NCBI GenBank assembly: GCA_006503475.1 | Contig: RSEH01000383.1 | Location: 1-30,475 of the forward strand | Direction of reading: 5' to 3' | DNA length: 30,475 nucleotides | Origin: Stentor roeselii | Taxonomy: Eukaryota > Ciliophora > Heterotrichea > Heterotrichida > Stentoridae | Part shown: piece after piece, positions 4,735 to 27,420 of the stretch | Numbering within the stretch: position 1 is the stretch's first letter | Layout of the letters: the number at the start of each line of letters is the position of its first letter | Translations under genes and position numbers: made by a program | Notes under the pieces: model-generated | Database searches by the model: none | The model's input: only the letters and a program-made list of their open reading frames with translations | Told to the model about the DNA's origin: nothing

Positions 4735-5250
4735 TCATTTAAACCTTTTATATAAGATTATTTTATCGGCTTTAGAAACCTTCGGTAGTTTTTTACATAA
4801 AATTCTTGTGATATTCGGTAACTTTAAAGGCTGAAAATTTGGGGTGGAAGTGTTTCCTTTGTTGTTGTGTGTGAAATTGAGAAATGGACTATCAGCGTAG
4901 CGAGGCAATCTCTTATTACTAAAAATTCTGGTGATTTTCTTTACTTTATCTGAAGGCAAGGTCAACGTTTTCCCTGATTTAAGATCAGTCAAAAAACCAT
5001 CTCTATCAATACGAGCCTTATACAAATTTTTCGACTTTTTCAGTCCTCCATCAATACACTCTAGTTTTTTCGCGTTTTCCTTCAAACTTTTGATTTTTTC
5101 AGCAGTCTTGTTCAAAACTCGAATGGGTTTGTAAAACTAAATAAAAACTACTTCTAAAACCTTGACAAAATTGCTAAATTTCACTTTGTTTTTCGGGTTT
5201 TCTTCATTTTCTTCTAGTAGCATGAAATAAAACTCGTCCAAATTAATCAT
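4735..5250 (-). CDS. Small basic protein, two exons
   Basis: Begins at the ATG complementary to 5248-5250 (MINLDEFYFMLLEENEENPK), runs 33 codons, then a 15-nt phase-0 intron (5137-5151) leads into FYKPIRVLNKTAEKIKSLKE and on to a TAA at 4735-4737, giving 166 residues. Without splicing there is an in-frame TAG and the second exon would lack an ATG. The first exon is acidic; the second is Lys-rich and ends LYKRFK. I do not recognise a family or motif. It is divergent from the coiled-coil gene starting at 5368, with 117 nt between the starts, which probably hold both promoters. Confidence 0.75.
5137..5151 (-). other. 15-nt spliceosomal intron
   Basis: Minus strand GTAGTTTTTATTTAG, phase 0, with the presumed branch A six bases from the 3' end. 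Its own TAG would stop translation if it were retained. Removing it joins ...FVKVLE to FYKPIRVL.... Confidence 0.8.
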
Positions 5251-5367
5251 TTTTATGAATCACTGAAAAATTTCAAATTAATCTCAAACCACTTAAAACA
5301 AATAAAACCTTGAAATCAATCTTGCTTTAAATCAAGAATTTCAAAACCTCTCATCGTGTAATTAAAA

Positions 5368-7143
5368 ATGTCAACGGATACAGAAGCCCTAGCAAACCTT
5401 TTAGAAGTCGCAGAAGGTAACAAAAACTTAGAACTCTTATTTTCCTTTCCTTTGCCTTACGACGTGGTTTTGAAGTACGAACTGATGCGAGAAAAGACTC
5501 TCAAAAAAGTTGGCCTTCCTCATTCTTCATCGAAGCTCTGGCGTCTTCAGAATGAAGCGAATCGAAAATTGAAACCGAAACCGAAACAAGAAGACCCTGA
5601 AGTCTCTACTCACGAGTTCATTGAACGACTTTCTGCAAGTCATGAAATGACGTTAAAATATGCAAGACTCATTGAAGAAACTGTTCAATCTATTGAAAAG
5701 TGCAGCTCAAAACTCAGTCAAATTTTGGATAACTCTTCTCATTCGTTTCCTTCGTTTTCGAAAGTTCAGGAACTTGAAATGATTTATTATAAGGATCTTA
5801 ACAAGTTCAGGGAAATGGACGTCGTTGAGATGAAAGTTCTTGAATTTCTTTCGAATCGGTTTTTTGATCGAGAAAAAGATATTTTTAAGACGCTTAATAG
5901 GGTTGAGGAACGGTTTGTTTATTATGAGAAAAATGTGCAGAATTTGCAGAGTCAGATTGAAAGCACGGTTCTTAAGAGTAGGAATGAAAAAGAGGAGAAT
6001 GAAGCAAGGGTCCAAGAATTATTGGCCACTTGTCACTCTTACTCAGAACAAATAGAAAAACTGAAACTTCAAAGTTCAGAGTCCTGGGAACATGAGCGAA
6101 AAATCATAAAAAACCAGCTGTGGGCAAGCTACGAAGAAAAAGTGAAAAACATGAACGAAAAGATGATGGAAACTTCGCTGCACATGGAAGCCCAAGTGAG
6201 TGAAATGAAACGCGACCTAGGCCACAAAGAGAAGAAAATAATAGAAAAATACAACGAAAACATCCTACAACTTGAAACCCAAATCATCGAACTCAAGCGC
6301 GAACTAACCATCAAAGACAAGAAACTCTCCGAAAACACGATCCAGACAGAATCTCAAATCCTCGAGTTAAAACGCGAATTTTCTCTAAAAGAAAAGAAAT
6401 TAATCGAAAAATTCACTGAAGAAACCTCATCTTTCACTTCAGAAATCAAAGAACTGAAAAGAGAGCTCAGCAAAAAAGAATCAGAACTCGAACTAAACTC
6501 ATCTAAACAAGTTTCATTAAAAGAAGAACTCGCCAGTCAAAAGCTCAGAAACAACGAACAAAGAGAAGAAATAAACAAATTAAAGGCAAAAACCACTGAC
6601 AAAGAACTGAACCAGCTCAAGTTAATGTTCAATGAACACAAAGAAGAACTCGCCCTGGCTAAGTCGAAATACGGCGACCTTCGTGAAGAGTTGATTCTTT
6701 ACAAATCCCAATGCGCGAACTATAAAGAAGAAAACACTGAACTCAAAAGTCTTTACTCGGACTCTTTAAGACTCAGAGAAACTTTTATCAAATTACAAGA
6801 AGTGCTTCATGAAATTTTTTTGAGGTACTCCAACTCGCATGAAGAGTGGCAACAGGAAAAGTGGAAAGATTCGCATGAAGATGAAATGGAAGAAGTCGTT
6901 AATGAAGTCGAGTTTCTTAAGTTTATGATATCGAAAATGGCAAATGATAACAATTGGCTCGTTGATCGACTCGCGGAACTTGGACAGGAAAATCAGAGGC
7001 TTAAGGATCAGAGTCCGAAGAAAAATGATATGATTAATGAACTCAAAGCTACCAGTAATGCTTTTAAAGGGTTTGAAAATGCTCGTAGTAAACTTTTGCA
7101 TCATTTTAATGATAGTAAAAGGGATGGGTCGTTAAACTACTAA
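5368..7143 (+). CDS. Long coiled-coil protein
   Basis: 591 residues. Residues 1-75 form a distinct N-terminal region (LLFSFPLPYDVVLKYELMRE, then SKLWRLQNEANRKLKPKPK). From about 90 to about 560 it is almost continuous Glu/Lys/Leu-rich heptad sequence. Between residues 272 and 380 four similar segments share an E-x-Q-(I/V)-x-E-(L/M)-K-R-(E/D)-(L/F) core, spaced 29, 25 and 29 residues, close to four heptads. A second acidic helical patch (HEDEMEEVVNEVEFLKFMISK) lies near 510-530. This is a structural coiled-coil protein; basal body, cortex or scaffold roles are possible, but nothing here fixes one. The ATG at 5368 sits in an A-rich context (aaaATG) and is the first in frame. No intron is needed. 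Confidence 0.85.
   Translation: MSTDTEALANLLEVAEGNKNLELLFSFPLPYDVVLKYELMREKTLKKVGLPHSSSKLWRLQNEANRKLKPKPKQEDPEVSTHEFIERLSASHEMTLKYARLIEETVQSIEKCSSKLSQILDNSSHSFPSFSKVQELEMIYYKDLNKFREMDVVEMKVLEFLSNRFFDREKDIFKTLNRVEERFVYYEKNVQNLQSQIESTVLKSRNEKEENEARVQELLATCHSYSEQIEKLKLQSSESWEHERKIIKNQLWASYEEKVKNMNEKMMETSLHMEAQVSEMKRDLGHKEKKIIEKYNENILQLETQIIELKRELTIKDKKLSENTIQTESQILELKREFSLKEKKLIEKFTEETSSFTSEIKELKRELSKKESELELNSSKQVSLKEELASQKLRNNEQREEINKLKAKTTDKELNQLKLMFNEHKEELALAKSKYGDLREELILYKSQCANYKEENTELKSLYSDSLRLRETFIKLQEVLHEIFLRYSNSHEEWQQEKWKDSHEDEMEEVVNEVEFLKFMISKMANDNNWLVDRLAELGQENQRLKDQSPKKNDMINELKATSNAFKGFENARSKLLHHFNDSKRDGSLNY
6181..6510 (+). repeat. Four ~25-29-residue coiled-coil repeats inside the coding region
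   Basis: Units begin at about 6184 (MEAQVSEMKRDLG), 6271 (LETQIIELKREL), 6346 (TESQILELKREF) and 6433 (FTSEIKELKREL); each is followed by a (K/I)-(D/E)-K-K-(L/I)-(S/I)-E stretch. Spacing near 28 residues keeps heptad phase, suggesting duplication of a four-heptad block. Confidence 0.7.
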
Positions 7144-7191
7144 TGTTTATAGTTAATTAAGAAGTCAAACTGATTCGAAATTTAAGATAAT

Positions 7192-7899
7192 ATGAAAGAA
7201 AATTTTGCAGAGATTTTGGAGAAAGTTAGTGAAAAAAATACTGCTCGGGTCAGGAATGGAATAAATCAAAGTCCTGTGGGAAAAGTAAGTTCAAATGATA
7301 GGTTTTCCAATTGTACTACCAAGTCGCAACTAGACCAATTCCGAAGATTTTCCAACAAACAAATCTACCTAAACATCGACCTGTCTGCCCACAAAGGTGC
7401 AGAAGCCCGTTTAAAAGAGCGAGAATTCTTCCACAACCTGACCCCTCCTCCAGGGAAGACCTACAAAGAAATAAAATCCCAACAACGTAAAAAAGACAAC
7501 AGCCACCTGATTCAAACTTTCGGAAACCAAAAAACCGGAATTCACGGCGAAGAGCTTCCAAAATTCAGAGAAAACCTTGAAGTCTTCATCAACCAAAACA
7601 ATTTCGACTTCCCAGACATGCTTCAGCCGGCCTTTTCCAGCAAGATAAAATATTTAAAAAAAGCGAACCTCGACATATCCGAGCCTCCAAACAAGCTTCA
7701 ATTTTCGCCTGAAAACTACAGAACAAAGAGCCAGTATCTTCGAGTTCGGGATAAAAACGTTGGAGCCTTGAAAAAATCAAAAGTAATGAAAAATCTTAAA
7801 TTTGAAGTTTTTTCAAAAAGGAAAAAAATCGGCTTTTTCTTTAAAGCTGCTCGAAATGGACGAATGATCAGGTCACGAGGGTTTATGTGTAATGATTAA
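7192..7899 (+). CDS. Basic protein of unknown function
   Basis: 235 residues, Lys/Arg/Asn-rich. I recognise no domain. Visible features are a proline-turn segment (FFHNLTPPPGKTYKEIKSQQ) near residues 80-100, a mixed region with FPDMLQPAFSSKIKYLKK near 140-158, and a strongly basic C-terminus (FSKRKKIGFFFKAARNGR). The ATG at 7192 follows an upstream stop and lies 48 nt after the coiled-coil gene. Its TAA at 7897-7899 is only 8 nt before the ATG of the receptor gene on the same strand. It is continuous without introns. Its codon use matches its neighbours, so I take it as a real gene. Confidence 0.75.
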   Translation: MKENFAEILEKVSEKNTARVRNGINQSPVGKVSSNDRFSNCTTKSQLDQFRRFSNKQIYLNIDLSAHKGAEARLKEREFFHNLTPPPGKTYKEIKSQQRKKDNSHLIQTFGNQKTGIHGEELPKFRENLEVFINQNNFDFPDMLQPAFSSKIKYLKKANLDISEPPNKLQFSPENYRTKSQYLRVRDKNVGALKKSKVMKNLKFEVFSKRKKIGFFFKAARNGRMIRSRGFMCND

Positions 7900-7907
7900 T
7901 AATAAAA

Positions 7908-10900
7908 ATGCCCGGTTTAGTCATTTTTACGCTTTTTCTTCAGTTTGCAGCAGCGGACTTTAGAAGAGAGCTGAAAGAGACTTCTTGTCTTGATACAGCG
8001 GAGACTGATTGCACGGCATGTAAGAGTGGGAGTTACCTTGATGTAAAAAAATGTTTTGAATGTCCTTCGAATTGTGCTGAGTGCACTTCAGAGAAAACTT
8101 GCACCAGTTGTCCTTCAGGGTCGTTTTTAAATCAAGAAAATTGCACTACTTGTCCGAGTAACTGTAAAACTTGTGAAAGTTCCTCGAATTGTACTTCATG
8201 TGACAGAGGTTTTTATCATAATACTGGAAAATGCTCATCATGCTCTTCGAAGTGCTCTGAATGTTCAGATCTTTCCAGTTGTTCTTCTTGCAGTAAAGGG
8301 TTTTATTTAGAGAATGTCTCTTGTATTGAATGCCCTTCTGGTTGTATTCAATGCAGTTCATCATCGCTCTGCAGTTCTTGCCAGGAACGGTATTATTTCA
8401 AAGAAAATTCCTGTAAAGAATGCTCTAGTTTTTGTAATCAATGCAATGAAACCACTTGTTTACAGTGTGATGAAGGGAGTTACTTTAATGATGGTGAATG
8501 CTTTGAATGTGATGAAAAACCTTTAAAAGCTGTCATCAGGGGGCCCACTGAATACTCGATTTTTTGTGATGGAATCGTTTTTGACGGAAGTTATTCAGTT
8601 TTTAACCCTGAACAACCTGTTGACTTCAACTGGACTGTCGAGCAAGTCGATAAGGAAGGAGGACTTATTTCCAGTGACGAGTTTTTTGAACAAGAAATTT
8701 CTCCTCAAATTTCAAATATTTCCTCTATTCTTATTGTCAATTTAACAATTGGAATATGTGGAAAAAAATCATTTACCCAGCTTATAACTGAGATCAAGTT
8801 AGAAAAAGGAGTTCTTCTAGTTCCTTACTTTGGAAATCACGTGAAAGTCGCTTATGAAAAAGAAGTTTTACTGAATTCAGGAGATGTGAACCGCTGCGGA
8901 CTAACAGGCGACTTGAAATGGTCCTGGTCAGGGGAACTAGAAGCAACAGGAAAAACTTTGACAATATCAGGACTCCCAGCAGGTCTTTACAACGAAAGTC
9001 TAAAAGTCCTTATTTCCAACTCAGTGACTTTTTTCAATTTTTCCTTAGAAATAACACCGCCGCCTGTCATAGTCGTGCTTTCCAGATCCTCAGGAGTGGC
9101 TTCAAGCGAGGAAGACTTTTTAATCAACGGCTCTGAGAGTTCCGGACTAGTCATCACAAAATACGAGTGGACCTGTTTCAACAGCACAAGTAAAAAAAAA
9201 TGTTTGAACCAAACAGGCGATGAGCTGAATCCAGGCAACGAAGAAAGTTTTTTGATTGGGAAGGAATTGTTGGTAAAAAATGGAAATTTAACGATTTCTT
9301 TGAAAGTCAAAACTTCTGATCAAGTCGCGAGTCTTAGTGTCGAGGTTTTATTTGGTGACTTTGAAGATGTTTCAGTGAAGCAAAGTACGAAAAGGTTGAA
9401 CCCAGCACAAGACTTTTTCTTGCAGACAACAGGAGAAACATCAGGGAAAGTCCTTTGGAAGAGTTCTATCGACTTGCCAACTAATAATCTTCTTTCACTG
9501 TGGATTCCAGCAGGTTCATTGAAAAACGGTGCTTCATACATGTTGAGACTGTTGATAGACCAAGTCGAATACGCGAATCTTTTCTTAAAAACAAGCGAAT
9601 TGCCTTTCTGTGATTCAACTTTTAAACTATCATCCTCTTCTGGCGACTTCGGTTCAGGGGTGTCTGTTTTTTCACCGTCATGTTCAAGTTCAGAGGACTA
9701 CCCGTTGAGCTTTACACTAAACTACTCAACACCGAGTTACTTCAACTTGACTTTAAAAACTTTACTTCCCGTTGGCTTCTCAAATTTAACTCTAAGCATT
9801 TGTGACAGTCTCGACTCATGCCAAGAGCAGAACTCTCAAGTTTCAATTTCATTTGAAAAGCTATCAGACAAAGAAATCCTTCAAAAATACTCTGAATTTA
9901 CCAAAACAACTGACATGATCCCGATGACTGTCATTTCTCTTGCCCTTAGCACCGCAATTCCTGAAGATCTTTTCAAAACCATGCTTTCAGACCTGGAAAC
10001 TTACTTCAACACCTTTAAAGACCCACAAATCGCTGTCGTTAATGGCCTCGCTGCCCTCACCTCTTCTGCTCAGCCGGACTCAAGCCTGGCTTCGAACTAC
10101 GCGAAGATTATTTCAATGATACAAGACGTGAATATCACTCATTTTAATTCAAAACTTCAACTTTTTTATACGGTTCAGATTCATTCGAACCTCGCCCGGT
10201 TGAAGTCTTCTTCGAAACTTGAAGATTTTTCCAAGGTTTTTCTGGAATCTGTGAAAAAAATAACTAAAAATTATGGACCTGGGCAGTACTTTGAAGTCTC
10301 TAATGCGGATTTCTCGTTTTTTAAAGTAACGAAGCTAGGAAATGAATTTTCTGGGTTTTTTTATCAGAGCGCAGGGAGAAACATCAGCTTTCCAAGTAAC
10401 TTACCTCTAGACTCATCATCATTAATGAACTTTTACTATATTTTATACAAAAACAAAGGGAACTACTCAGATTTCCTTGAAATTTCCTTCACAAAATCAG
10501 GAGAAATCTCAAACAACTCTTTAACCCAAACATCAGAAACCCTTGTAAAACTTTCAAGACTATCAAAGCCAATAACAATTTCCTTAAACTACCGAAAAAA
10601 CGTGAACAACAAATGGGCTTGCGCATATCTCCAAGATTCAGAATGGCATTCTTCAGGTTGTCAATTTTTAAAGAACGATTCAAAATCAATAAGATTCACA
10701 ACAAACCACACTTCTCTATTTTCACTTTTCGACACATCTGAAGTAAAACTGCCACCAGTGCAGTACATCGAGTCATCTTCAGGTTGTGGGGAGAATTTAA
10801 ACGGCATCTGGGTGTTAATCGTGATAATCTTTTTGTACATCATTTTTTTCCCCGTCCTTTGGTACTTCGACAAGGCCGACCTGAAGGAGGTAATGCGGAA

Positions 10901-11546
10901 CAACAACTACGACAATATAAAAAAATGTGACTCTGACCCGAGCATCGCCTCTCCGAGTTTCTCTGAAGAGATGCCGAGTAACAACTTGAGTTCAGACTAC
11001 GCGATTCAATACAAGCCGAAGCCTCAGAAGCTCCGAAAGCACTCTTGCAAGGTGTTAATTGAAGGACATCTCGTTTTTGGCTTACCTGTTTTTCGCACTG
11101 AGTTCACAAGGGTGCTTCGAATCAGTACTTTCGCTGTTGTACTTATTTTTGAACTGCTGCTTGAAGGACTCTTGATGATGGGCTTCGAAGATACTGACTC
11201 TGGGTCAAGTGGAGATGCGAAGAAGTATTTCGAGGACTATCGAGACAAGTACTTCGGATATACGATCTTCGCATTGGTTATTAGTCTTTTAGTCCAGGTT
11301 TCGCTTATTATTTTGTTTAGTCTCAAAGGGAAAATGAGAAGATTTGGAATTGCGGCAGGATTGGCTTTGATGTTTGTTGTTTTGATTGGAAGTATTGCTG
11401 GGATTATTATCATGGCTGTCAAGTTTTGCCCGAATTGGTCAGGGTATTGGGGAATTTCTTTTCTTTTTGGAACCATTGTGGAAGTCGGACTGGTTCAAAC
11501 TGCTGTCATGTTCAGTCGATGGGGATTGTTGAAGTGTTTTGAGTAG
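7908..11546 (+). CDS. Cys-rich/REJ-like multi-pass receptor
   Basis: 1212 residues. A signal peptide (hydrophobic core LVIFTLFLQFAAA) is followed at residues 27-201 by five to six roughly 30-residue repeats of paired CxxC with a G-x-Y/F turn, as in furin-like/growth-factor-receptor Cys-rich repeats. Residues about 208-890 are beta-rich and N-glycosylation-rich, with PKD/REJ character (VFDGSYSVFNPEQPVDFNWTV; ITKYEWTCFNS; a helical stretch near 680-800). Residues about 902-945 (KWACAYLQDSEWHSSGCQF ... NHTSLFSLF) resemble a GAIN/GPS site but have HTS in place of HL(S/T). Membrane helices lie at about 964-988, 1070-1095, 1118-1140, 1146-1172 and 1179-1203. The loop LIEGHLVFGLPVFRTEFTRVLR followed by GLLMMGFEDTDSGSSGD is characteristic of ciliate REJ proteins as I recall them. 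Polycystin-1 has eleven spans and a PLAT domain; here there are five and no PLAT is seen. Ligand unknown. Confidence 0.85.
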   Translation: MPGLVIFTLFLQFAAADFRRELKETSCLDTAETDCTACKSGSYLDVKKCFECPSNCAECTSEKTCTSCPSGSFLNQENCTTCPSNCKTCESSSNCTSCDRGFYHNTGKCSSCSSKCSECSDLSSCSSCSKGFYLENVSCIECPSGCIQCSSSSLCSSCQERYYFKENSCKECSSFCNQCNETTCLQCDEGSYFNDGECFECDEKPLKAVIRGPTEYSIFCDGIVFDGSYSVFNPEQPVDFNWTVEQVDKEGGLISSDEFFEQEISPQISNISSILIVNLTIGICGKKSFTQLITEIKLEKGVLLVPYFGNHVKVAYEKEVLLNSGDVNRCGLTGDLKWSWSGELEATGKTLTISGLPAGLYNESLKVLISNSVTFFNFSLEITPPPVIVVLSRSSGVASSEEDFLINGSESSGLVITKYEWTCFNSTSKKKCLNQTGDELNPGNEESFLIGKELLVKNGNLTISLKVKTSDQVASLSVEVLFGDFEDVSVKQSTKRLNPAQDFFLQTTGETSGKVLWKSSIDLPTNNLLSLWIPAGSLKNGASYMLRLLIDQVEYANLFLKTSELPFCDSTFKLSSSSGDFGSGVSVFSPSCSSSEDYPLSFTLNYSTPSYFNLTLKTLLPVGFSNLTLSICDSLDSCQEQNSQVSISFEKLSDKEILQKYSEFTKTTDMIPMTVISLALSTAIPEDLFKTMLSDLETYFNTFKDPQIAVVNGLAALTSSAQPDSSLASNYAKIISMIQDVNITHFNSKLQLFYTVQIHSNLARLKSSSKLEDFSKVFLESVKKITKNYGPGQYFEVSNADFSFFKVTKLGNEFSGFFYQSAGRNISFPSNLPLDSSSLMNFYYILYKNKGNYSDFLEISFTKSGEISNNSLTQTSETLVKLSRLSKPITISLNYRKNVNNKWACAYLQDSEWHSSGCQFLKNDSKSIRFTTNHTSLFSLFDTSEVKLPPVQYIESSSGCGENLNGIWVLIVIIFLYIIFFPVLWYFDKADLKEVMRNNNYDNIKKCDSDPSIASPSFSEEMPSNNLSSDYAIQYKPKPQKLRKHSCKVLIEGHLVFGLPVFRTEFTRVLRISTFAVVLIFELLLEGLLMMGFEDTDSGSSGDAKKYFEDYRDKYFGYTIFALVISLLVQVSLIILFSLKGKMRRFGIAAGLALMFVVLIGSIAGIIIMAVKFCPNWSGYWGISFLFGTIVEVGLVQTAVMFSRWGLLKCFE

Positions 11547-12196
11547 ATAAGGGTTTAACTAAATATTAATATTCAGATTTATTTTTATTGGTTTCAAGGC
11601 TTTTTCATTCCAAGTTGCCTAGGATTGTATTTTTTTACATATTTCACTGGATGAATATCTTAAATTTTATGATTTTTTAATTAATTTCTAATAAGTCTTC
11701 TTTAAATGTTGTTTTAATCTAGGATACTGAGAATTTTGCTTTATTGGGTTTCTTTTTATTGTAATTATGACTTGTAAACCTTTTGCAAAGGTTTTATGAA
11801 AAAACCGCCATTTTCTTATTTTTTATTTTTGTTAGTTTAATGAATTTTTTTGAATGTTTGGTTTTACCCACATAATATAATTTACGAATATATAACTTAA
11901 GGACATTCTGTTTTAATATTCAACTTTTAGATTTTGAAAGATTGATTGAAGGAAGTTTAAATTCTTTATCTGACTGAAGATACTAAGATCATTATTTTTA
12001 GAAATTGATTGGCCAGGTAAGATGTTTAATAGACTCATAAAATTAAATTAATATCCTGATTAACTGTTTAATTCAAAAAATCTATTTTTCCAAGGATTTT
12101 CTAATCCCTCTTATGAAAAATAATAAACCTAAACACCAAAGTCTAATCTAAACCTCATAATTACACCTCCTCTAATCCCCTAATCAAATTTTCCAA
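11547..12196. other. AT-rich intergenic region between convergent genes
   Basis: About 650 nt lie between the stop of the REJ-like receptor (plus) and the stop of the Rab escort gene (minus). No protein-like frame is visible. It contains one short perfect hairpin (11776-11794) and long T-runs. It is the largest gap in the central block, where other convergent stops are 1-3 nt apart. Confidence 0.6.
11776..11794. repeat. Small inverted repeat (8-bp stem, 3-nt loop)
   Basis: AAACCTTT-TGC-AAAGGTTT. Symmetric, so readable from both strands; it lies 230 nt past the receptor stop and 400 nt past the Rab escort stop. It could be a 3'-end RNA structure or chance in AT-rich DNA. Confidence 0.35.
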
Positions 12197-13576
12197 CTAA
12201 ATATTTTTTAATATATCTTCCTCCTCAACAACTCGAACAGGGAGAAACTCATCATCAGGAAACTTATTCTGAAACAAATCCTTGACAAGTTTCTAAATAA
12301 ACCTTACAAAATGTTTCAAAATTTCAATTCCTCCAGGGTTACTAACATGATTAAACCTTCCACTACAAATAACTTCAAAATGTTCATAACTCGCAAAAAA
12401 GACAACCTCGACAGGAACAGACTGAATAAGTCTTTCAATATATTCAACTCTGCAGTTCTTTCCCCAAAAGTGCAGCATAGAGTACCCAGCAGGTACAGTT
12501 GAAGTGCTTTCAGTGAGTTGCAGAACATAAATAACATCAGGATTTCCAAATTCTCCAGGAGGCACTGAAATCAACACAGGTCCTTCAGCTACTTTCAAGA
12601 CATCTCTACAAAGAACGACAGCTCTAAAAGTGACGTTCAAGACCTTCGTCTCTAGTTCAGGGTCAAGTCTAGCAAAGCACGGGTTCAAATAAAGACTTTT
12701 TCCTTTCATTTCTCCAAAAGTGGTCATAACTCGAAATTCATCATTTTCTTGAACGATATTCATTACTTGTAAATCCTCAGTGATGACGTAAGTTCCTTCA
12801 TAAACAGCAGACATTCTGCAGAACCCTTGGGGGATATCACTGGAGCCGTACATTGGGTAAAGCAATGCGCAGTTGTCTTTATAAACTCCTAAAGAACTGA
12901 CGTATTTTTCCATCTGACTCAAAGCTTCTGCTAATGAAACATCTTCGTTTTCAATCAAAAGAACCGAGTACATTAAAATCCTCTGCAAATTAACAGGAAG
13001 TCGCTTTTCATCCATGACTGTCTTAAACTTAACTTCTGTGTCAAAACTTCCTGCTTCAATCAACTTGCTGCAAAACTCGATAAACTTCATCAAATGGCGC
13101 TTTTCAGCTACAGTCAAAACCTCATCAGCGAAAATTTCGCTTTTATTGCAAGGCACACGTCGAATACCTGAACTGTCCCAAACGACGCCGGCTTCAAGTG
13201 GTTTAAACTCAAGGTACAAAGAAACTCCGCAGTTGATGGTCCAGTCAACAACTTCTCCAATTGAATAAACGAATTTAGGCTGAAGGTCGATGTTGAACCT
13301 TCTCGGAAATTTCTGACATTCTTCTTCTTCTGAAGGAAACTTGTGCACTTCGAATGAGCGGAATGAAAGTGAATCACCTGAAGAGATAAGAGATAAGAAC
13401 TCTTTAAGAGATAAAGTCCCATCAATGCTTCCGTAGTAACTTGAAGAGTCAAGGTGAAGGATTTTATTACCTCTTCTAGAAAGTGCCCTATGTTAAAATC
13501 ACGCTGCTAAGATACTTGTTGGCGTGTCTGTTCCAAGTAAGATGCTGTCAAAGGTGGTTTGCAGCAATTCTTCCAT
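12197..13576 (-). CDS. Rab escort protein (REP/CHM family, GDI superfamily)
   Basis: Three exons (13576-13503, 13487-12308, 12292-12197) give 449 residues. The N-terminus DSILLGTDTPTSILAAALSR (10-29) with LHLDSSSYYGS (36-45) matches the FAD-like nucleotide fold of GDI/REP, although the glycine pattern is degenerate, as is normal for the family. RRFNIDLQPKFVYS (87-100) and ALLYPMYGSSDIPQGFCR (232-249) are the conserved GDI/REP regions. CNKSEIFADEVLTVAEKRHLM (138-158) is closer to REP than to GDI, whose usual text here is a YKVPS-type motif, so I call REP. REP presents newly made Rab GTPases to geranylgeranyl transferase II and delivers them to membranes. The length is GDI-like and shorter than animal REPs, so a GDI-like role cannot be excluded. 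Divergent from the gene at 13729. Confidence 0.88.
12293..12307 (-). other. 15-nt spliceosomal intron
   Basis: Minus strand GTAAGGTTTATTTAG, phase 0, in the Rab escort gene. Retention would stop translation at its TAG. Splicing adds KLVKDLFQNKFPDDEFLPVR and a short acidic tail ending at a TAG (12197-12199). Confidence 0.85.
13488..13502 (-). other. 15-nt spliceosomal intron
   Basis: Minus strand GTGATTTTAACATAG, splitting an Ala codon (GC|G). Retention gives an in-frame TGA. Removing it joins ILAA to ALSRRGNKILHLDSSSYYGS, reproducing the conserved REP N-terminus; this is the best-supported intron in the window. Confidence 0.9.
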
Positions 13577-13728
13577 TTATGGATAGATCAGAATAACACC
13601 CTGAAAAAACCTCAAAAATTCTTAAATACAAAATTTTTTATCTAAATCAAATTTTTCTCATCTAAAAAAAATTCTTCTCAATGATTAAAATTTTATTTCT
13701 TTCAACTTTCCTATCTTCCCAGTAATAA
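13577..13728. promoter_or_regulatory. Divergent intergenic region, Rab escort / helical gene
   Basis: 152 nt between two outward-facing ATGs, with A/T runs and no reading frame. It must contain both promoters and 5' UTRs. No specific box can be assigned with confidence. Confidence 0.45.
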
Positions 13729-14736
13729 ATGGGAAAGCGATGCAAAAGACGCCTTTACACAAAAATTTCAGCCCAACCTGACATGCGGGCAGATTTTTGC
13801 AGCGACTCGATGTTATCAGACACAGAACTGAGCATAATAGACTCAAGCGAAGAGTCGGCGCGTTTGCTGAAACAAGTGAAAGACTACATCAGCGAGATCT
13901 ATTCAGAACACAAAAATGACTTGGAACTTCGGCGAAACAAACGACTTAATTCAAAGAAGCCGACAGAGTACATCCAGCCCTACAACTTAGTAGTGAACTT
14001 TCACTTTCAATGCAGAATTCGACTAGAAATTCAAGCAATTGTTCAATTTTCACTTGGCGACATGCTGAAAGAAGCTGTTTTGCTCAGTACAAATGAATTC
14101 ATCGAGTACCTCTCAGCCTTCCTCAAAGAGTTCGAAGGAAAGAAGTGCTTACTTCGAGCTATCATGCTTTATGAAGTGTATCACACACTTCTTAACTCGA
14201 TCTCTCAAATTGGCAGCATTCTTTCAGAGTTAATTAAAAAGTCCAGCTTTGAACTGACCAACAAGCAGCTTTTTTATGAAAAAGTCGCATGTGGGTACTT
14301 TGACTTGATTGAAGACGTCTGGAAAAAGGAAAACTCGAGGTATCTTGATGATATTGTCAAAATCAAGCAAGATTTGCAGTTCTTTGAAAAAGGTGAAAAT
14401 TTTGGGATTAGGAATCAATCGAATTTTCATTCGGATTCGACAAGTGAAGGGGAAAGTTCTAGTGAAGCTTTGCATAATTTGTCTATTGATGAACTTGTTA
14501 GGTTTATTGATACTGATAAGAAAAGGAAGAAGAAAAAAAATAAGAAAAGTAAGAAGGTGAGAGAAAGACTGGAGGATGAATTTGAGAAGGAAATTGAATT
14601 GCAGGTTCAGGTGTTTAAGGAAACGATTGGTAATGCTTTACCTTTAAAGGAAAGGCGGAAACCAGCGGTTTCTGAAGAGTTTTTGCAGATGATCAGGAGG
14701 AAACTTAGAGATCTCAAAAACAGTAATTCGGCGTGA
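13729..14736 (+). CDS. Helical protein with Lys-rich nuclear-signal-like tract
   Basis: 335 residues; no family recognised. The N-terminus is basic (MGKRCKRRLYTK) and followed by an acidic Ser-rich stretch (DTELSIIDSSEESARLL). Residues 75-225 look like a compact helical domain (IRLEIQAIVQFSLGDMLKEA; FIEYLSAFLKEF; LLRAIMLYEVYHTLLNSI). A Ser/Glu patch (HSDSTSEGESSSEAL) precedes KKRKKKKNKKSKK near residue 265-278, a plausible nuclear localisation or RNA-binding tract, then an amphipathic C-terminus. It ends with TGA, the only TGA stop in the window; the next in-frame stop is TAA two codons on. 43 nt separate it from the following plus-strand gene. Confidence 0.75.
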   Translation: MGKRCKRRLYTKISAQPDMRADFCSDSMLSDTELSIIDSSEESARLLKQVKDYISEIYSEHKNDLELRRNKRLNSKKPTEYIQPYNLVVNFHFQCRIRLEIQAIVQFSLGDMLKEAVLLSTNEFIEYLSAFLKEFEGKKCLLRAIMLYEVYHTLLNSISQIGSILSELIKKSSFELTNKQLFYEKVACGYFDLIEDVWKKENSRYLDDIVKIKQDLQFFEKGENFGIRNQSNFHSDSTSEGESSSEALHNLSIDELVRFIDTDKKRKKKKNKKSKKVRERLEDEFEKEIELQVQVFKETIGNALPLKERRKPAVSEEFLQMIRRKLRDLKNSNSA

Positions 14737-14779
14737 GGGTAAAGGGATATTTTAAGTTGGTTTGGAATAACTCTAATAA

Positions 14780-16825
14780 ATGGAAGAAGTCCACGAGCTA
14801 TTATCCATAATCTATAGTAAAGGGACTCACCTGGAAGCAACAGAGTCTCTAAACAATCTCTCAAGTCTCCTGGACACAATCGACCACCCAGTAGACCAAA
14901 TGGTTTTAAAGAAGACTCGAAAACTTTTCCAGAAATTCGGGTACTCTCTTTACGACCACCTTCCTCGTCTTTACTTGAAATATTTAAAAGTGATTGACAG
15001 AAAAAACACGGAACTTCTGATCACTCTGTGCAACGACTCACTGTTCATCCGGGATACGTTGACTGGAACAGAGACTAGTGAGTTGCTCACAGCAGGAGTA
15101 CGGGAATCGTTGATTTACCTTCTTCAGCATGGCTTACTTGACAGCCAACAAACTGCAATAGTCCAAAGTCTTCTGGATACCAAGCAGTCAAGTAACTTTG
15201 AAGAAGAGTTGCAGTATGCCATTGAAGAAATTGAAAATAACTCTTCTGTTGGACTTCATATTCTTATTGAAATGTTTTCAACGTTTTCTACTATGAAAGA
15301 TCAGTTTTATTACTTTTCTAATCAACTTGGAGGGTTTATGAAGAGCCTGAGCGCAAAGCGCTCAGTGGATATTTATAGCATGACTATCAGGTTCTTGGAT
15401 ATCCTTTTACCGCCCACCCGGTATGTCGTAAAGATCGATGACGAAAATTTCGACTACCAACTCTCCCATCTAAAGCTCTTTCCTCTCTACGAAGACGTTT
15501 TCTACACTTCAGTCGATCTTCTAAAAATCCTATCAAAAGCCGACAAATTCGTTCACGAAAACTGCGTAAAAATCCTTTACAAGCTCTGGAACTTATACCC
15601 CCGTCTTCGAAGCCAGTTAAACGAGATGATACTTTCTAACTTCAAAGCCATAAACTCAAGTGCAGCATACGACCCAAAACGAAAAGCATCTGAATTTTTA
15701 TACCTGATAATGCACGACAAAGAAGTAGAAGGCGACTTTAAAGGCCAACTAGAAGACGAAGGCCTTGAAAGTCTTTTCGAAGACGACTGTTACGACAAAG
15801 CCATTCCAGCGCCAATAGAATTAAAAGACTTAAAAATCAGTGCAGGTTTTCCCATCTGCTCCGAAGTGAAACCTGGTGAAAAATCAGCTTATTACGTGGA
15901 AGTAAAAGAAAAGAACTCGATTCTCTCCTGGGGCTTTGCGACTGAGGACTATGACATAAGCTACACCATTTCTCGCATGAACCCTTTTGAAGAAATTCTC
16001 TTTCAAGGCGAGCGAGTCGCCTGTGACACGACGCCCATCATTTCAGCGATTCTTGTTCAGTCCCCAGGGCTTTACAAGTTTGAATGGAACAACAATTTTT
16101 CATGGTTTCGAAGTAAAAAAATCAGATATCGCATCTCGATCCTCACACCAGTCCTTTCAAGTCCAGAAACCTTTTTAACTCCAAGAATTCAACTTTTAAA
16201 TCAAGATGAAATCGGCGATTTATGCTTTGTTTTACCGAATTCTGACTTTACCGAAATCGGGATTTCAATAAACTCTTCAGAAATCAGTTGTTTTTCTTCA
16301 GTACTCGACAAAATCCCTTTAAACAACGAGAACCCAGATGAAAAAATAAACAGAATCCTAGCAAGTGTTTCAGGAAAATGCAAAAAAATAGGAATTGTTG
16401 AAAAAGAAGTGAAAAATAGAAATTTTGATTTAAATCTTGGAGCTTTCGCTGTTTGTCGAGATGTGGAGGCTTTTGCACTTTTGAATCATGACTCGATGCA
16501 GGTTTTCACGTTGATTGCTGTGATTGAAGATGATGGTGTCCGAAGCGCGGTTGTCAATGCGGGGCGACTGCTTCCGAATGGCGATGTGAGCAACTTGAAG
16601 GGAATGGAAGCTTCTTCGGCGGTTGCCTTGCTTTTGAGTTTGTTTGGACCTGCAACTGTGGTGGTTATTGGAGCTGATATTGAGAAATTAGTTGCTCGGG
16701 CACGTTTGATGGTCCCTGGAAACATTTGGAATAACTCTTCGGTTGTTTTTAGTGACTTTTCTTTGGCGGAATGTGCCTCGAAACTTCATTATTTGCTGTT
16801 TAGGTATAAAAGTATGGTTTATTAG
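14780..16825 (+). CDS. Helical-repeat protein with a GOLD-like domain
   Basis: 681 residues. Residues 1-335 are helical and leucine-rich with HEAT/ARM-like character (LLSIIYSKG; ILIEMFSTFSTMKDQFYYF; SVDLLKILSKADKFVHENC; LYKLWNLYPRLRSQL). Residues about 347-458 resemble a GOLD beta-sandwich: ISAGFPICSEVKPGEKSAYY, then ILSWGFATEDYDISYTI (the usual W-x-F-x-T-x-x-x-D-I core), then SPGLYKFEWNNNFSWFRSKK (the G-Y-x-F-x-x-D-N-S-x-S-x-x-x-x-K core with N for D). GOLD domains act in Golgi and vesicle transport and lipid handling. Residues about 460-681 form a mixed alpha/beta C-terminal domain with a nucleotide-fold look (LFGPATVVVIGADIEKLVARAR) that I cannot name. The stop at 16825 lies 3 nt from the stop of the convergent gene. 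Cargo-adaptor function is inference. Confidence 0.8.
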   Translation: MEEVHELLSIIYSKGTHLEATESLNNLSSLLDTIDHPVDQMVLKKTRKLFQKFGYSLYDHLPRLYLKYLKVIDRKNTELLITLCNDSLFIRDTLTGTETSELLTAGVRESLIYLLQHGLLDSQQTAIVQSLLDTKQSSNFEEELQYAIEEIENNSSVGLHILIEMFSTFSTMKDQFYYFSNQLGGFMKSLSAKRSVDIYSMTIRFLDILLPPTRYVVKIDDENFDYQLSHLKLFPLYEDVFYTSVDLLKILSKADKFVHENCVKILYKLWNLYPRLRSQLNEMILSNFKAINSSAAYDPKRKASEFLYLIMHDKEVEGDFKGQLEDEGLESLFEDDCYDKAIPAPIELKDLKISAGFPICSEVKPGEKSAYYVEVKEKNSILSWGFATEDYDISYTISRMNPFEEILFQGERVACDTTPIISAILVQSPGLYKFEWNNNFSWFRSKKIRYRISILTPVLSSPETFLTPRIQLLNQDEIGDLCFVLPNSDFTEIGISINSSEISCFSSVLDKIPLNNENPDEKINRILASVSGKCKKIGIVEKEVKNRNFDLNLGAFAVCRDVEAFALLNHDSMQVFTLIAVIEDDGVRSAVVNAGRLLPNGDVSNLKGMEASSAVALLLSLFGPATVVVIGADIEKLVARARLMVPGNIWNNSSVVFSDFSLAECASKLHYLLFRYKSMVY

Positions 16826-16828
16826 ATG

Positions 16829-17563
16829 TTATATCTGACTGTTTAATAGCCTCGTGGCCATGCACTTCTTTTCCAGCATCTTCCTATCCAGCTCTTCCAT
16901 CCTCTTCCTTTTCTTAACAAGTTCCGGGTTGGTAATCTGCCAAACTTTTTTTTCCTTATCAAAAAGTTCTCCACTAGTTTTAAAATCCTTCAAAAAGAAC
17001 CCTTTAAGTTTTCTTCTAAGAATTTTCGACTTCGGCCTGATATATCCAGTTGAGTTCTTTTTTTCCTTTTCAAGTTTCAAAGTGAGGTCAGTCGCAGTTC
17101 TCAAGTCTCTCAAAGCAGGTTGAACCATCGATTTTTTAATATCTTGAATAGTATTTAAATCCGCTGCAGGAAGACTAGAATAAAGATGATTATGAGTTTT
17201 TCGAGGACTTACAGTTTTGCCCTGTGACATGTTCAAGAAATTCAAAGGCTGAGGTATTTTCGAAGGGTCTTTTATATGAACTTTACTTGTTTTCACCCAT
17301 CGTCGGACATAAGGTGACTCGCTCATTGTGGAGTGCTTCAGAGGTGGACGAGGAAATTGACAGTACCCGTCAAAGTGCTGCGGTTGAACAGTGTACATTT
17401 TTTCAATCACTGGTTCTTTAGACTTGAGAATATGTGGAAAGCCGGTGGAATACGCGGTGAATGATTTTTTCTCTCCTCCAAAGCGATTACTGGGACTTTG
17501 TCGTCCTGCAGTTGAGTCAATCGAGTAATACTTTCCGGTCTGGTAGTCTTTCCAAACTTCCAT
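16829..17563 (-). CDS. Basic protein of unknown function
   Basis: 244 residues, Lys/Pro/Ser-rich, no domain recognised. The N-terminal half holds short aromatic and proline motifs (EVWKDYQTGKYYSIDS; GYCQFPRPPLKHSTMSESPY). The second half is a highly charged helix (LRDLRTATDLTLKLEKEKK; KKRKRMEELDRKMLEKK). The mix of low-complexity proline turns and charged helices resembles microtubule-associated or axonemal inner proteins, but that is a guess from composition. The ATG at 17563 is 17 nt after the stop of the zinc-finger gene on the same strand. Its TAA lies 3 nt from the convergent GOLD gene's TAG, so the 3' UTRs must overlap. Confidence 0.75.
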   Translation of the reverse strand: MEVWKDYQTGKYYSIDSTAGRQSPSNRFGGEKKSFTAYSTGFPHILKSKEPVIEKMYTVQPQHFDGYCQFPRPPLKHSTMSESPYVRRWVKTSKVHIKDPSKIPQPLNFLNMSQGKTVSPRKTHNHLYSSLPAADLNTIQDIKKSMVQPALRDLRTATDLTLKLEKEKKNSTGYIRPKSKILRRKLKGFFLKDFKTSGELFDKEKKVWQITNPELVKKRKRMEELDRKMLEKKCMATRLLNSQI

Positions 17564-17580
17564 TTTTAACTACTTGAAAA

Positions 17581-18372
17581 TTAAAACAACTCACAAACAC
17601 AAGGAGTCTCTTCACGACTTTCAAGTTTTTCAGGACTTTTCTCGAATAAACTTGTTAAAAGAGAGTCGCTCGTTCGAGGGTCGAGGACTTGCAAAAGGGT
17701 TTCTTTTAATTTTGACTTGATTAAAAAGTGGCACTTGTTGCAGGTCAAGTTTCGAAGGCGTCTGTAAGAAACTTGGGAATCGCAATTTGAAAGAAGATTT
17801 GATAAATGAGAGTTTAAAGGCTGAAGCTCTTGTTCAGATCTTTTTAGTGATGTTGATAGTTTTAAGATAGATGTTTGGGAGGTAGAAAGAGAAATGATTA
17901 GATTTTGGATGTTTGTTTCACTTTTGGATAAAAGGGAGGATAGCTCGGTTTTTATTGATTCTTGTTTTAAGGTTTTAGATGATTCTTCTGAAATCTTTTG
18001 GGTTAAAGTAAAGGCTTTCTCGTCGTGATTGATTTGGTTGGATGAGAGAAGAGACTCGAGAGAGGATTGCTTTAATTGTTTTAAGGAAATTTCTTTTTTT
18101 AGATGCTCCTCGCGGAGAAGATAGTCTTGAAGCTCTTTTTGAAGAGATGAGATTTGTCTTGAATGTGATGAGAACTCAGTTTTAAAGGATTGTTTTAAGC
18201 AGTTTTCGCAAATTGTGTTTGAGGTTATGGTTTTAGAATGGAGTAAACATGCTGGCTTTAAGCAGTTTTGGCAGAGGTTTATTGGCTTCTTGCTTCGCAT
18301 GGGCTCGGGACAGAGTGTGCAGGATGAGGGGATTGAAATTCTTTCTTTTGGGATTGATTTTTCTGAATCCAT
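17581..18372 (-). CDS. FYVE-related zinc finger and coiled-coil protein
   Basis: 263 residues. Eight metal ligands lie at residues 18-58: C18, C21, C34, C37, C42, H45, C55, C58. The spacing CX2C-X12-CX2C-X4-CX2H-X9-CX2C matches the cross-brace order of FYVE/ZZ/B-box-type fingers and is closest to FYVE, but the basic RRHHCR lipid-binding patch is absent and one Cys is His. A long Ser/Leu/Lys coiled coil follows (about 62-200), then a second small cluster (TCNKCHFLI near 213-221 and PCVC at the end). FYVE fingers bind phosphatidylinositol 3-phosphate on endosomes; without the basic patch this one may instead bind protein. 157 nt separate it from the upstream minus-strand gene. Confidence 0.75.
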   Translation of the reverse strand: MDSEKSIPKERISIPSSCTLCPEPMRSKKPINLCQNCLKPACLLHSKTITSNTICENCLKQSFKTEFSSHSRQISSLQKELQDYLLREEHLKKEISLKQLKQSSLESLLSSNQINHDEKAFTLTQKISEESSKTLKQESIKTELSSLLSKSETNIQNLIISLSTSQTSILKLSTSLKRSEQELQPLNSHLSNLLSNCDSQVSYRRLRNLTCNKCHFLIKSKLKETLLQVLDPRTSDSLLTSLFEKSPEKLESREETPCVCELF

Positions 18373-18529
18373 TCGATTTATACCATTATAGAATACTAGA
18401 ATGTTGGGGAATTAGTTAGATATGAATTTTCGGTTTTATTATAATTTATGGATGTTTATATGGTTTATTGAATGAGGAAGGTAAAGATGAGAGTTTAACA
18501 ATACTCTAAACTAAACAGATTAGCTCATA

Positions 18530-19106
18530 TTAATTATCTCTAAGTAAAATTCCTTTAATCTTCTGTAACAATTCCGACCTAGACTTTTTCACATCCTTAC
18601 TTTTCTCTTGTTTTCTTCTTTTCATCACTTCACTGGTAGCGATTCTTTTAAAATTGGGTATTTGTTTATTTCTAAGTAAAAAAGTACATAAAAGACGACT
18701 CAACCGAAAAGAGACTCAAGCCTCTGACTTGATTCGCTTTATTAGGAACGATTCCAATTTTATTCATATGGTCAATTTTCTTATTAAGTCTGATTTGCGC
18801 TCTAATTAACTGGCTCTTGACTTTCCCTTCAATAATCTGTCGAATTTCTCGACTTTCAATAGGCGTCAAGACCTTCTGACTTAAAACTTTCGTTTTTTGC
18901 TTTCTGTAAAACTCTTCTTTAAGCTTCGGCCTATGCCCAGTGAAGCAACTTTCCCTTAAATTCGGATTTTTCGTTATTTTTAAGCAACTCGCGTTAACCG
19001 ATCCAGTAAAATAAGAAGAATCATTAACAGTAATATTATAACTTCTTTCTTTAACCGACTTTTCACAGTCCGAAAATTCAATCGACTTCCTACCTCGAGT
19101 CTTCAT
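18530..19106 (-). CDS. Small basic protein, two exons
   Basis: 186 residues from exons 19106-18688 and 18671-18530, joined across a 16-nt intron that splits an Ile codon (AT|A). Without splicing the protein would stop after SSFMYFFT. After splicing it continues INKQIPNFKRIATSEVMKRR and ends ...KIKGILLRDN with TAA at 18530-18532. The protein is strongly basic and mostly helical (LSQKVLTPIESREIRQIIEG; SQLIRAQIRLNKKID). No family recognised. It is divergent from the CRAL-TRIO gene with only 15 nt (or 54 nt, see that gene) between start codons. Confidence 0.75.
18672..18687 (-). other. 16-nt spliceosomal intron
   Basis: Minus strand GTACTTTTTTACTTAG. This is the only 16-nt member seen; the extra base lies before the A, which remains six bases from the 3' end as in the 15-nt introns. 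Retention gives an in-frame TAG. Confidence 0.8.
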
Positions 19107-19121
19107 TTATCCTAAAATTTA

Positions 19122-20546
19122 ATGCAAAATTTCCACTATTCAAATAATTCAAATTCAAAAATGTCAAATCTTGAGATTCCAATTGAAGTCCTTCCTCCAA
19201 GAGACTCTTATCGATTTTGGCCTGAAAGTTCTTATTCATTTCATGGTTCAGGGAAAAAACTCGTTAGACATATCTTTGAAAATCAGAAACTTAGTGACTT
19301 TGAAAATGAAAAACTTTCAAGACTTGAAGCTGAGATAAAGAATGGAAAAATTGAAGGATTTGTTGTTCCAATTGAATGGAGTCGAAATCATTTGTTGAGG
19401 TTTTGTTATGGGACTGGGTGGAAAACTAGAAATTCAGTGAAAGCTTTGGTCTCGTATTTGAAGTGGAAATATGAAAAGATACCAAAAGGATGGCAATGTC
19501 TTTATATGAGAGTTCATTCGATTATTGTGAGGTTTAAGTAGAACTCTGGGACTTTTTATGTTTGTGGAAGAGATTTCATGTTTAGACCTTTGATTGTACT
19601 GGATTTCAACAAAATTGACTTTAAAACGGTTAGGAATATTTAGAATAATGTTGATCTGTATGCTGATCTGCTTTGCTTTTTGTTGGAATATGTTGTTCAA
19701 TATATGCTTATTCCTGGACAGGTTGAAAATTGGGTCGTTTTGATTGATTTGGGGAAAAAAGGACTTGGAAGTTTAAGTGTCAATAGTTTAAAACAGGTAT
19801 TGTCGATTCTTCAGGTCAATTATAGGTGCCGTATGGGAATGACGTACATAGTGAATCCTCCAAAAAGCATGTTCATGTTATGGTCATGCATAAAGCCATT
19901 CCTGGACGAGATCTTGATCGAAAAGATAAAAATCTCAAACGGTTCCTCCTCATCCGAGATGCTATCCTCCTTCAACCCTCACCAACTAGAAGAAAAATAC
20001 GGAGGGCGTTTAAAAAACCTTGAAAAATTCTGGCCTCCAACAGTTCCCAATTCGCCTTTCGACGCTCCAGGAATGACGATTTCTTTATCCTCAAAAGACT
20101 CTTACTTCTCCTTCCACCACGAGGCACATCCCAAGGAAGAAAGTCCAGCTTCAATAAAAAAGCCTTCAAAACAACGAACCGAAAGCCAAGACCTAAGTCT
20201 CGATCACGGCCAAATCTCAATCGAAGAACTTGAAAGTGAAAAATGCAGTCGAAGTGACTTTGAAGAGCCAGATGAACCTCTAGTTGAACTTGAAAAATCA
20301 GTCTTTTTTGACTGTAAACCTTTAGAAAAAAGCTTTAAAAGTGAAGAAAAATTGAAAAAAATACTACTTGAAAAATCTTTTCATAATAAAGACAACTTGT
20401 CACCTTGTAAAGCTGTAGATTTCGAGACACCCAAGAAAAAAGGCCCTAGGCCGATTGGGATTATTTTGGAAAATGAAGACAGGTTTAAACGATGCTCGAA
20501 ATTCGGCTGCTGTGAAAGTGAAAACTACAGTTGCAGTGTTTTTTAA
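19122..20546 (+). CDS. Sec14-like CRAL-TRIO lipid-transfer protein
   Basis: Three exons (19122-19526, 19542-19628, 19644-20546) give 464 residues. An N-terminal CRAL-TRIO-N helix (NHLLRFCYGTGWKTRNSVKA, 89-108) precedes the lipid-binding fold at about 136-290: RPLIVLDFNKIDF, VENWVVLIDLGKKGLGSLS (the usual V-x-I-x-D-x-x-G core), MGMTYIVNPPKSMFMLW (the Y-I-V-N-x-P core), IKPFLDEILIEKI, and the closing signature HQLEEKYGGRL. Sec14 proteins bind and exchange phosphatidylinositol and other lipids. A roughly 140-residue acidic, Ser-rich tail (SIEELESEKCSRSDFEEPDE) follows and ends CCESENYSCSVF, where the Cys pair could be lipidated (inference). An in-frame ATG at 19161 has a better A-rich context and may be the true start, giving 451 residues. 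The stop lies 1 nt from the convergent gene's stop. Confidence 0.88.
19527..19541 (+). other. 15-nt spliceosomal intron
   Basis: GTGAGGTTTAAGTAG, phase 0, in the CRAL-TRIO gene. Removal joins RVHSII to NSGTFYVCGRDFMFRPLIVL, restoring the start of the lipid-binding fold. Confidence 0.88.
19629..19643 (+). other. 15-nt spliceosomal intron
   Basis: GTTAGGAATATTTAG, phase 0. Removal joins DFNKIDFKT to NNVDLYADLLCFLLEYVVQY within the CRAL-TRIO fold. Only 87 nt of exon separate it from the previous intron. Confidence 0.88.
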
Positions 20547-25725: not shown

Positions 25726-25749
25726 TGTTTTTAATGTCTTCCAATAAAA
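25726..25749. promoter_or_regulatory. 24-nt divergent intergenic spacer
   Basis: Only 24 nt separate the ATG of the ER chaperone (minus) from the ATG of the SHIPPO gene (plus). Both 5' UTRs and core promoters must be minimal or must extend into the opposite coding region. No TATA-like element can be singled out. Confidence 0.45.
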
Positions 25750-27117: not shown

Positions 27118-27420
27118 TTATTCTTCTATTTTTTCTTCTACTATCTTTTCATCTTTTTTCATTATAAAAATACTATCAAATTTCTGAACCAAATTTGTTA
27201 TCTCATTTTTTACCTCATCAATAGCTTTTTTATTTTCATTAATAACTAAATCAATCTGAACCAAATTTTTTATCTCATTTTTTACCTCATCAATAGCTTT
27301 TTTATTTTCATTAATAACAAGATCAATTTTTCCATCAATACAATTCAACTTTTTCTGCCATACAGCTTGTATTGAATCTTCAACAGGAATAACTTCATCA
27401 CAAACTGCAATCTTTCTCAT
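27118..27420 (-). CDS. Small ORF with a fresh internal duplication
   Basis: 100 residues from the ATG at 27420 (MRKIAVCDEVIPVEDSIQAV). The frame is open a further 15 codons upstream but has no earlier ATG. It contains two near-identical copies of IDLVINENKKAIDEVKNEI-x-NLVQ, a helical, coiled-coil-prone 24-residue unit, then a Lys/Glu tail (KKDEKIVEEKIEE). No family recognised. Its third-position AT bias and its setting in repeat-rich DNA make it less certain than the genes to its left; it may be a recent or transposon-derived ORF. Confidence 0.45.
   Translation of the reverse strand: MRKIAVCDEVIPVEDSIQAVWQKKLNCIDGKIDLVINENKKAIDEVKNEIKNLVQIDLVINENKKAIDEVKNEITNLVQKFDSIFIMKKDEKIVEEKIEE
27184..27327. 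repeat. 72-bp tandem duplication within the small ORF
   Basis: Two copies with an offset of 72 bp (27184-27255 and 27256-27327) differ at only a few positions, for example aaatttgttatc versus aaattttttatc. The period is a multiple of three, so the frame is kept and one 24-residue helical unit is doubled. Confidence 0.9.

Follow-up and report, generated by a model that had tools for sequence, protein, structure and literature searches.

The six short segments that interrupt genes in the window, a stretch of 30,475 nucleotides (nt) taken as positions 1-30475 of contig C326 in an assembly of 44.4 Mb and 522 contigs, are with a probability of about 0.92 ordinary U2-type spliceosomal introns of a ciliate, probably a heterotrich, in which nearly all introns would be exactly 15 nt long and the A at position 10 would most likely be the branch adenosine. 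A first-pass annotation had described six GT...TAG segments with an A at position -6, counted from the 3′ end, five of them 15 nt and one 16 nt long. We recovered all six at their positions and with these lengths; four lie on the minus strand, two on the plus (Table 1). Each creates an in-frame stop codon if retained, through the closing TAG in five and through the TGA inside GTGA at 13488.

Intron positions, length and the conserved A

Taken by itself, the motif is no rarity. Shuffling predicts 10.83 copies of GTN7ANNTAG and 10.95 of its 16-nt form, and the window holds 11 and 8, respectively, which is the chance level; the introns are singled out by their reading frames alone. These counts speak for an alternative in which the six segments are GT...TAG strings that close open frames by coincidence. 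However, protein domains continue over the junctions at 13488 and 19629, where this alternative is already refuted, and both frame joining in a larger sample and whole-genome counts give a sharp excess at 15 nt. We therefore consider a chance origin of the six very improbable, although 18672 may still be such a string.

In the Rab escort/GDI-type gene, the Pfam GDI score is 131.4 bits with the 13488 segment spliced out, compared with 116.6 bits for the exon-2 frame alone, and the spliced protein aligns with Rab Escort Protein 1 without a gap over the junction. In the SEC14-like gene, CRAL_TRIO scores 116.4 bits (profile positions 2-153) with both 19527 and 19629 removed, compared with 94.9 bits (36-153) for the exon-3 frame alone. 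The Pfam CRAL_TRIO match starts directly past the 19527 junction, and a match of the spliced protein to PDR16 (residues 52-299) takes in both junctions, as read from the match table only. The predicted introns at 13488 and 19629 are thus confirmed by homology, and the putative intron at 19527 is supported by it; the gains at 19527 and 19629 stay below 5, each having been scored as a lone intron next to a short middle exon. The introns at 5137 and 12293 rest on the coding frame: Pfam gave no match for the second exon of the 5137 gene, which was scanned alone, and no domain match over the 31 codons after the 12293 intron in the spliced protein.

Table 1. Introns and candidate introns of the window. 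Coding gain is the score for frame lengthening when the segment is removed.
Positions	Strand	Length (nt)	Sequence	Phase	Stop if retained	Coding gain	Context
5137..5151	-	15	GTAGTTTTTATTTAG	0	TAG	13.8	36 + 133 codons joined into one frame
12293..12307	-	15	GTAAGGTTTATTTAG	0	TAG	5.1	near the 3′ end of a Rab escort/GDI-type gene
13488..13502	-	15	GTGATTTTAACATAG	2	TGA	22.3	first intron of the Rab escort/GDI-type gene that holds 12293
18672..18687	-	16	GTACTTTTTTACTTAG	2	TAG	3.9	candidate intron, weakest of the six; 139 + 46-47 codons joined
19527..19541	+	15	GTGAGGTTTAAGTAG	0	TAG	<5	SEC14/CRAL-TRIO gene
19629..19643	+	15	GTTAGGAATATTTAG	0	TAG	<5	SEC14/CRAL-TRIO gene that holds 19527
5417..5431	+	15	GTAACAAAAACTTAG	1	none		unproven stopless candidate near the start of gene 5362-7143; motif score 6.3, within background

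To look beyond the window, we added 27 stretches (262,790 bases) to it, giving a sample of 293,265 bases from which loci L001-L009 were left out, and scored GT-AG segments of 10-45 nt by the lengthening of the coding frame upon their removal; 10 further dinucleotide pairs served as controls. GT-AG segments of 15 nt with a gain of at least 8 numbered 24, and the controls averaged 1.7. Other lengths showed no comparable excess; the next ratios were 2 against 0.7 at 12 nt and 5 against 2.3 at 21 nt, and 16-nt segments numbered 1 against 2.7 in controls. Position 10 was A in 23 of the 24 (controls, 7 of 17) and, at a gain of at least 5, in 30 of 33 (controls, 18 of 50). Two early detectors based on coding windows of 150 nt and 60 nt had found few introns, a shortfall probably explained by the position of introns close to gene starts; the frame-gain score took their place.

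For the stop statistics, 29 of the 33 15-mers at a gain of at least 5 were kept; the four removed were an overlapping competitor and three that lack A at position 10. Seventeen of the 29 lie within the first third of the joined frame. All of them except 5137, for which the second exon only was used, were scanned as spliced proteins, and a Pfam domain above cut-off spans the junction in 9 of these 28 stop-bearing introns (GDI, Myb, DNAAF5, Cupin_8, DHHC, nucleoside transporter, Serinc and two Kelch domains), as one also does at window intron 19629. Across the whole genome, the strong-consensus pattern GTAAG..TANNTAG occurs 51, 643, 39 and 45 times at 14, 15, 16 and 17 nt, respectively, and the same 15-nt pattern read backward, used as a control, occurs 168 times compared with 643 forward.

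Splicing machinery, the probable branch site and the 16-nt segment

Overall, the introns would follow a consensus of approximately GTA at the start, TA at positions 9-10 and a closing TAG or CAG, and a spliceosome carrying canonical U1, U2 and U6 would excise them. The most likely role of the A at position 10 is that of branch adenosine, which would give a lariat loop of approximately 10 nt and a tail of 5 nt. We infer splicing itself and the branch at A10 from the machinery genes and from published work on Stentor. U1 was found with ACTTACCT, U2 with GTAGTA and U6 with ACAGAGA, all canonical motifs, and the genome encodes SF1. Among 89 frames of at least 200 amino acids (aa), 42 end in TAA, 39 in TAG and 8 in TGA; therefore, the standard code applies. 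The published introns of Stentor coeruleus have the same design (Nuadthaisong 2022, PMC9505925). In line with the first-pass annotation, the segments accord with tiny Stentor-type spliceosomal introns that keep an A at -6.

Several points weigh against this identification. The classic branch motif UACUAAC carries A-A, and the T at -7 of our introns departs from it; therefore, pairing with U2 would be weak. Among the 28 scanned junctions, 7 have sub-threshold Pfam matches only and 12 have none. The sole 16-nt case in the window, 18672, is weakly supported, and where the length is fixed, an A held at a constant distance from the 3′ end looks the same as one held at a constant distance from the 5′ end.

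This bears on the suggestion that the 5′ part of the intron is flexible in length and the 3′ distance of the A fixed. It was drawn from the one weak 16-nt case, which contains a run of six T and has a gain of 3.9. One length dominates both the sample and the genome counts; therefore, a flexible 5′ part is not supported here. The 18672 segment may not be a true 16-mer at all, either because there is no intron and the gene ends at its TAG or because an assembly error in the T6 run lengthened a 15-mer, and we give this alternative slightly less than an even chance. Its low gain and its lack of homology (the spliced protein has no Pfam match) agree with it, as do the genome-wide counts, in which 16-mers of the strong consensus (GTAAG donors) are not in excess over 14-mers or 17-mers. 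However, these counts cover GTAAG donors only, among which the 16-nt forms have the A at -6 in 39 cases and at -7 in 33. Additionally, 18672 has its A at -6, as does the majority of the 16-nt introns published for Stentor (442 of 633; PMC9505925), and 16-nt introns make up approximately 5-7% of heterotrich introns in published work (PMC9505925, PMC11441545).

Stop codons and stopless introns

The claim that every intron gives a stop codon if retained holds for all six segments of the window. However, it fails as a rule for the class, because stopless 15-nt introns are present in the same genome. The first-pass annotation had conceded that the stop bias was partly a matter of ascertainment. A scan that needs no broken frames detects stopless introns, and their share is not clearly below chance. 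In a 15-nt intron, the stop would fall at bases 2-4 (TAA, TGA or TAG) in phase 2, at bases 9-11 (TAA or TAG) in phase 1 and at bases 13-15 (TAG) in phase 0. Stops upon retention are therefore frequent because each of the splice signals can, by coincidence, read as a stop codon in a frame of its own. With random phase and discovery-biased columns excluded, 56% of introns (bootstrap 48-62%) would carry an in-frame stop, and the remaining 44% would lack one even in the absence of selection. An ending in CAG or AAG, or a phase not covered by these positions, leaves an intron stopless, and such introns would simply be tolerated.

The scan ran a motif score from stop to stop over 265 open coding stretches (229,968 nt). 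Stop-bearing introns served to train the score, and the stop-forming columns of each phase were omitted for that phase; therefore, some bias may remain. At a score of at least 8, it gave 14 stopless hits against a background of 6.6 (codon shuffle) or 4 (antisense), and at a score of at least 7, 22 hits against 17.2 or 10. An earlier scan, with frames trimmed to the first ATG, gave 15 hits at a score of at least 7 compared with 17.5 expected introns and the background on top of them (P=0.0005-0.06). We do not rely on its apparent depletion because it missed introns that lie after a stop but before the ATG that follows; scanning from stop to stop raised the stopless count and weakened the depletion signal. 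A column-shuffled motif control (13.9 hits against 10 for the true motif at a score of at least 7) was also set aside because the shuffling makes codon-favoured patterns.

Nine putative stopless 15-nt introns, all among the 14 hits at a score of at least 8, are supported by domain fit or by paralogues. Removal of the 15 nt raises the Myb_DNA-bind_7 score from 74.8 to 82.7 bits in L012, where the match becomes gapless and sequences of unequal length (149 and 98 aa) are compared, the Serinc score from 135.5 to 144.4 bits in L014 and the DUF4485 score from 62.8 to 74.3 bits in L030. In L010, PUA rises from 15.0 to 20.6 bits, both under the cut-off of 24.8, and the spliced protein matches NSUN6 without a gap at the junction. 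In L015, zf-RING_2 rises from 30.8 to 37.4 bits, and 8 of the 12 shared RING models fit the spliced form better; however, four models score lower when spliced than when retained (PF00097, 29.2 and 30.5; PF12861, 15.7 and 19.5; PF24921, 14.4 and 18.6; PF14569, 13.4 and 14.0), which weighs against a stopless intron there. The ankyrin gene of L023 is mixed, with 4 of 5 Ank models better when spliced (PF00023, 68.1 compared with 64.0) but PF12796 (Ank_2) worse (69.3 compared with 90.2).

Paralogous TRP-like membrane proteins share one intron position, found at 8465-8479 in L017, 5795-5809 in L027 and 9913-9927 in L029. The L017 copy ends in TAG and stops the frame, whereas the copies in L027 and, probably, L029 end in CAG and do not. 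L029 has a second stopless intron at a place where its paralogues are without the five residues. Other candidates, namely two in L013, one at L014-8037 and those in L019 and L025, are unproven as stopless introns; the L025 pair has no Pfam match in either the spliced or the retained form. The L031 candidate was scanned in the spliced form only and one of the L013 candidates in the retained form only.

Selection through nonsense-mediated decay (NMD) could keep an in-frame stop in introns whose length is a multiple of three and make the stop a functional part of the intron, as has been argued for Paramecium. The genome encodes UPF1 (the best of 8 CH-domain matches has an E-value of 1.1e-57) and UPF2 (one partial match, 34.1 bits at a cut-off of 29.8). 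The stopless share at a score of at least 8 is 24-30%, compared with 37% expected by chance, and at a score of at least 7, the stopless excess over background is 4.8 (codon shuffle, P=0.015) or 12 (antisense, P=0.18), compared with 17.4 expected. Stops at bases 9-11 are also more frequent in phase 1 (6 of 8) than in other phases (10 of 30, p=0.05), although the stop was what revealed most of the phase-1 introns. However, the other two stop positions have no significant link with phase: TAG ends 14 of 22 introns in phase 0 and 7 of 16 in other phases (p=0.32), and a stop stands at bases 2-4 in 8 of 8 introns in phase 2 and 24 of 30 elsewhere (p=0.31). The shortfall at a score of at least 8 is not significant either (14 stopless hits against approximately 20 expected by codon shuffle, P=0.09, or approximately 18 by antisense, P=0.23), and both the nine supported stopless introns and the paralogue position with TAG in one copy and CAG in two argue against such selection. 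We consider it unlikely that NMD selection maintains the stops. A mild depletion of stopless introns is possible but unproven, and selection for stops via NMD is neither shown nor excluded by these counts. The idea that each intron carries a stop suited to NMD thus does not stand as a rule, the stopless share being not clearly below chance. Since NMD genes are encoded, transcripts that retain stop-bearing introns may undergo decay. As a separate observation, the UPF1 zinc-binding (CH) domain has eight matches over the cut-off, on contigs C52, C515, C90, C49, C505 and C1, a strong one of 198.9 bits and seven weaker ones of 52-83 bits, which is more UPF1-like stretches than expected.

We tentatively propose, at odds just short of even, that intron length in this lineage settled on a multiple of three, a class avoided by other ciliates, that approximately one quarter of the introns are translatable, that NMD is not the keeper of splicing fidelity and that an ancestral intron switched between TAG and CAG among paralogues. 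If NMD is indeed not the keeper of fidelity, either splicing would be nearly error-free or an insertion of five residues would be harmless. If the stopless share holds in RNA data, heterotrichs would be a natural setting in which to ask whether intron sequence is shaped by NMD, with a length that is a multiple of three and yet translatable introns tolerated. The window also shows that a reading of sequence alone can recover real 15-nt introns and that its stop-codon story owes much to their having been found by broken frames.

Relation to other ciliates and neighbouring genes

Introns of 15 nt with an A at -6 are already known in heterotrichs such as Stentor. In S. coeruleus, 92.8% of 8806 introns are 15 nt long, and the A stands at the 10th base in 8005 of the 8806 and at the 11th base of 16-nt introns in 442 (PMC9505925). 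Our introns resemble these in the dominance of 15 nt, the GT-AG ends, the A at the 10th base, AT-richness, the standard code, the canonical U1, U2 and U6 motifs and the bias toward the 5′ side of genes (PMC9505925). In contrast, 7.2% of S. coeruleus introns are 16 nt long, whereas the strong-consensus 16-mers here are not above background (PMC9505925). The reading of the conserved A as a branch point has been credited to Slabodnick 2017, and the A was not seen in all ciliates compared (both PMC10946202).

Blepharisma stoltei shares the 15/16-nt length class, but it reads TGA as Trp (PMC9942806), whereas TGA ends 8 of our 89 long frames. Blepharisma is thus an improbable source of the window, and Stentor or some other heterotrich with the standard code is a likely one. 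According to PMC11441545, approximately 95% of heterotrich introns are 15 bp long, and introns with a length divisible by three are depleted in Loxodes and other ciliates. Paramecium likewise has short introns and encodes NMD factors; its short introns are under selection against translatable members with lengths divisible by three, and such lengths are avoided (PMC11334263). In contrast, the sole length in clear excess here is a multiple of three, and stopless members are not rare. The terms 'stop codon', 'nonsense' and 'NMD' are absent from the main text of PMC9505925, and the cited portion of PMC12862383 does not treat the stop content of heterotrich introns. We found no printed test of that content in the literature searched, a search that supplements and Slabodnick 2017 lay outside.

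Other genes of the window include one at 7896-11546 on the plus strand for a cysteine-rich protein of 1216 aa with hydrophobic stretches at its C-terminus. It matches the Pfam VSP family at 35.7 bits (cut-off 31.4), probably because of generic CxxC repeats. The minus-strand frame at 23587-25752 is a single open frame for an Hsp70-type protein with a long tail (Pfam HSP70, 217.5 bits), which resembles the endoplasmic reticulum Hyou1/GRP170 kind. At 25735-26715 on the plus strand lies a gene for a protein of repeated PGPGxY motifs, which resemble the SHIPPO repeats of axonemal proteins, and the minus-strand frame at 27118-27486 contains a tandem repeat of approximately 25 residues (IDLVINENKKAIDEVKNEI).

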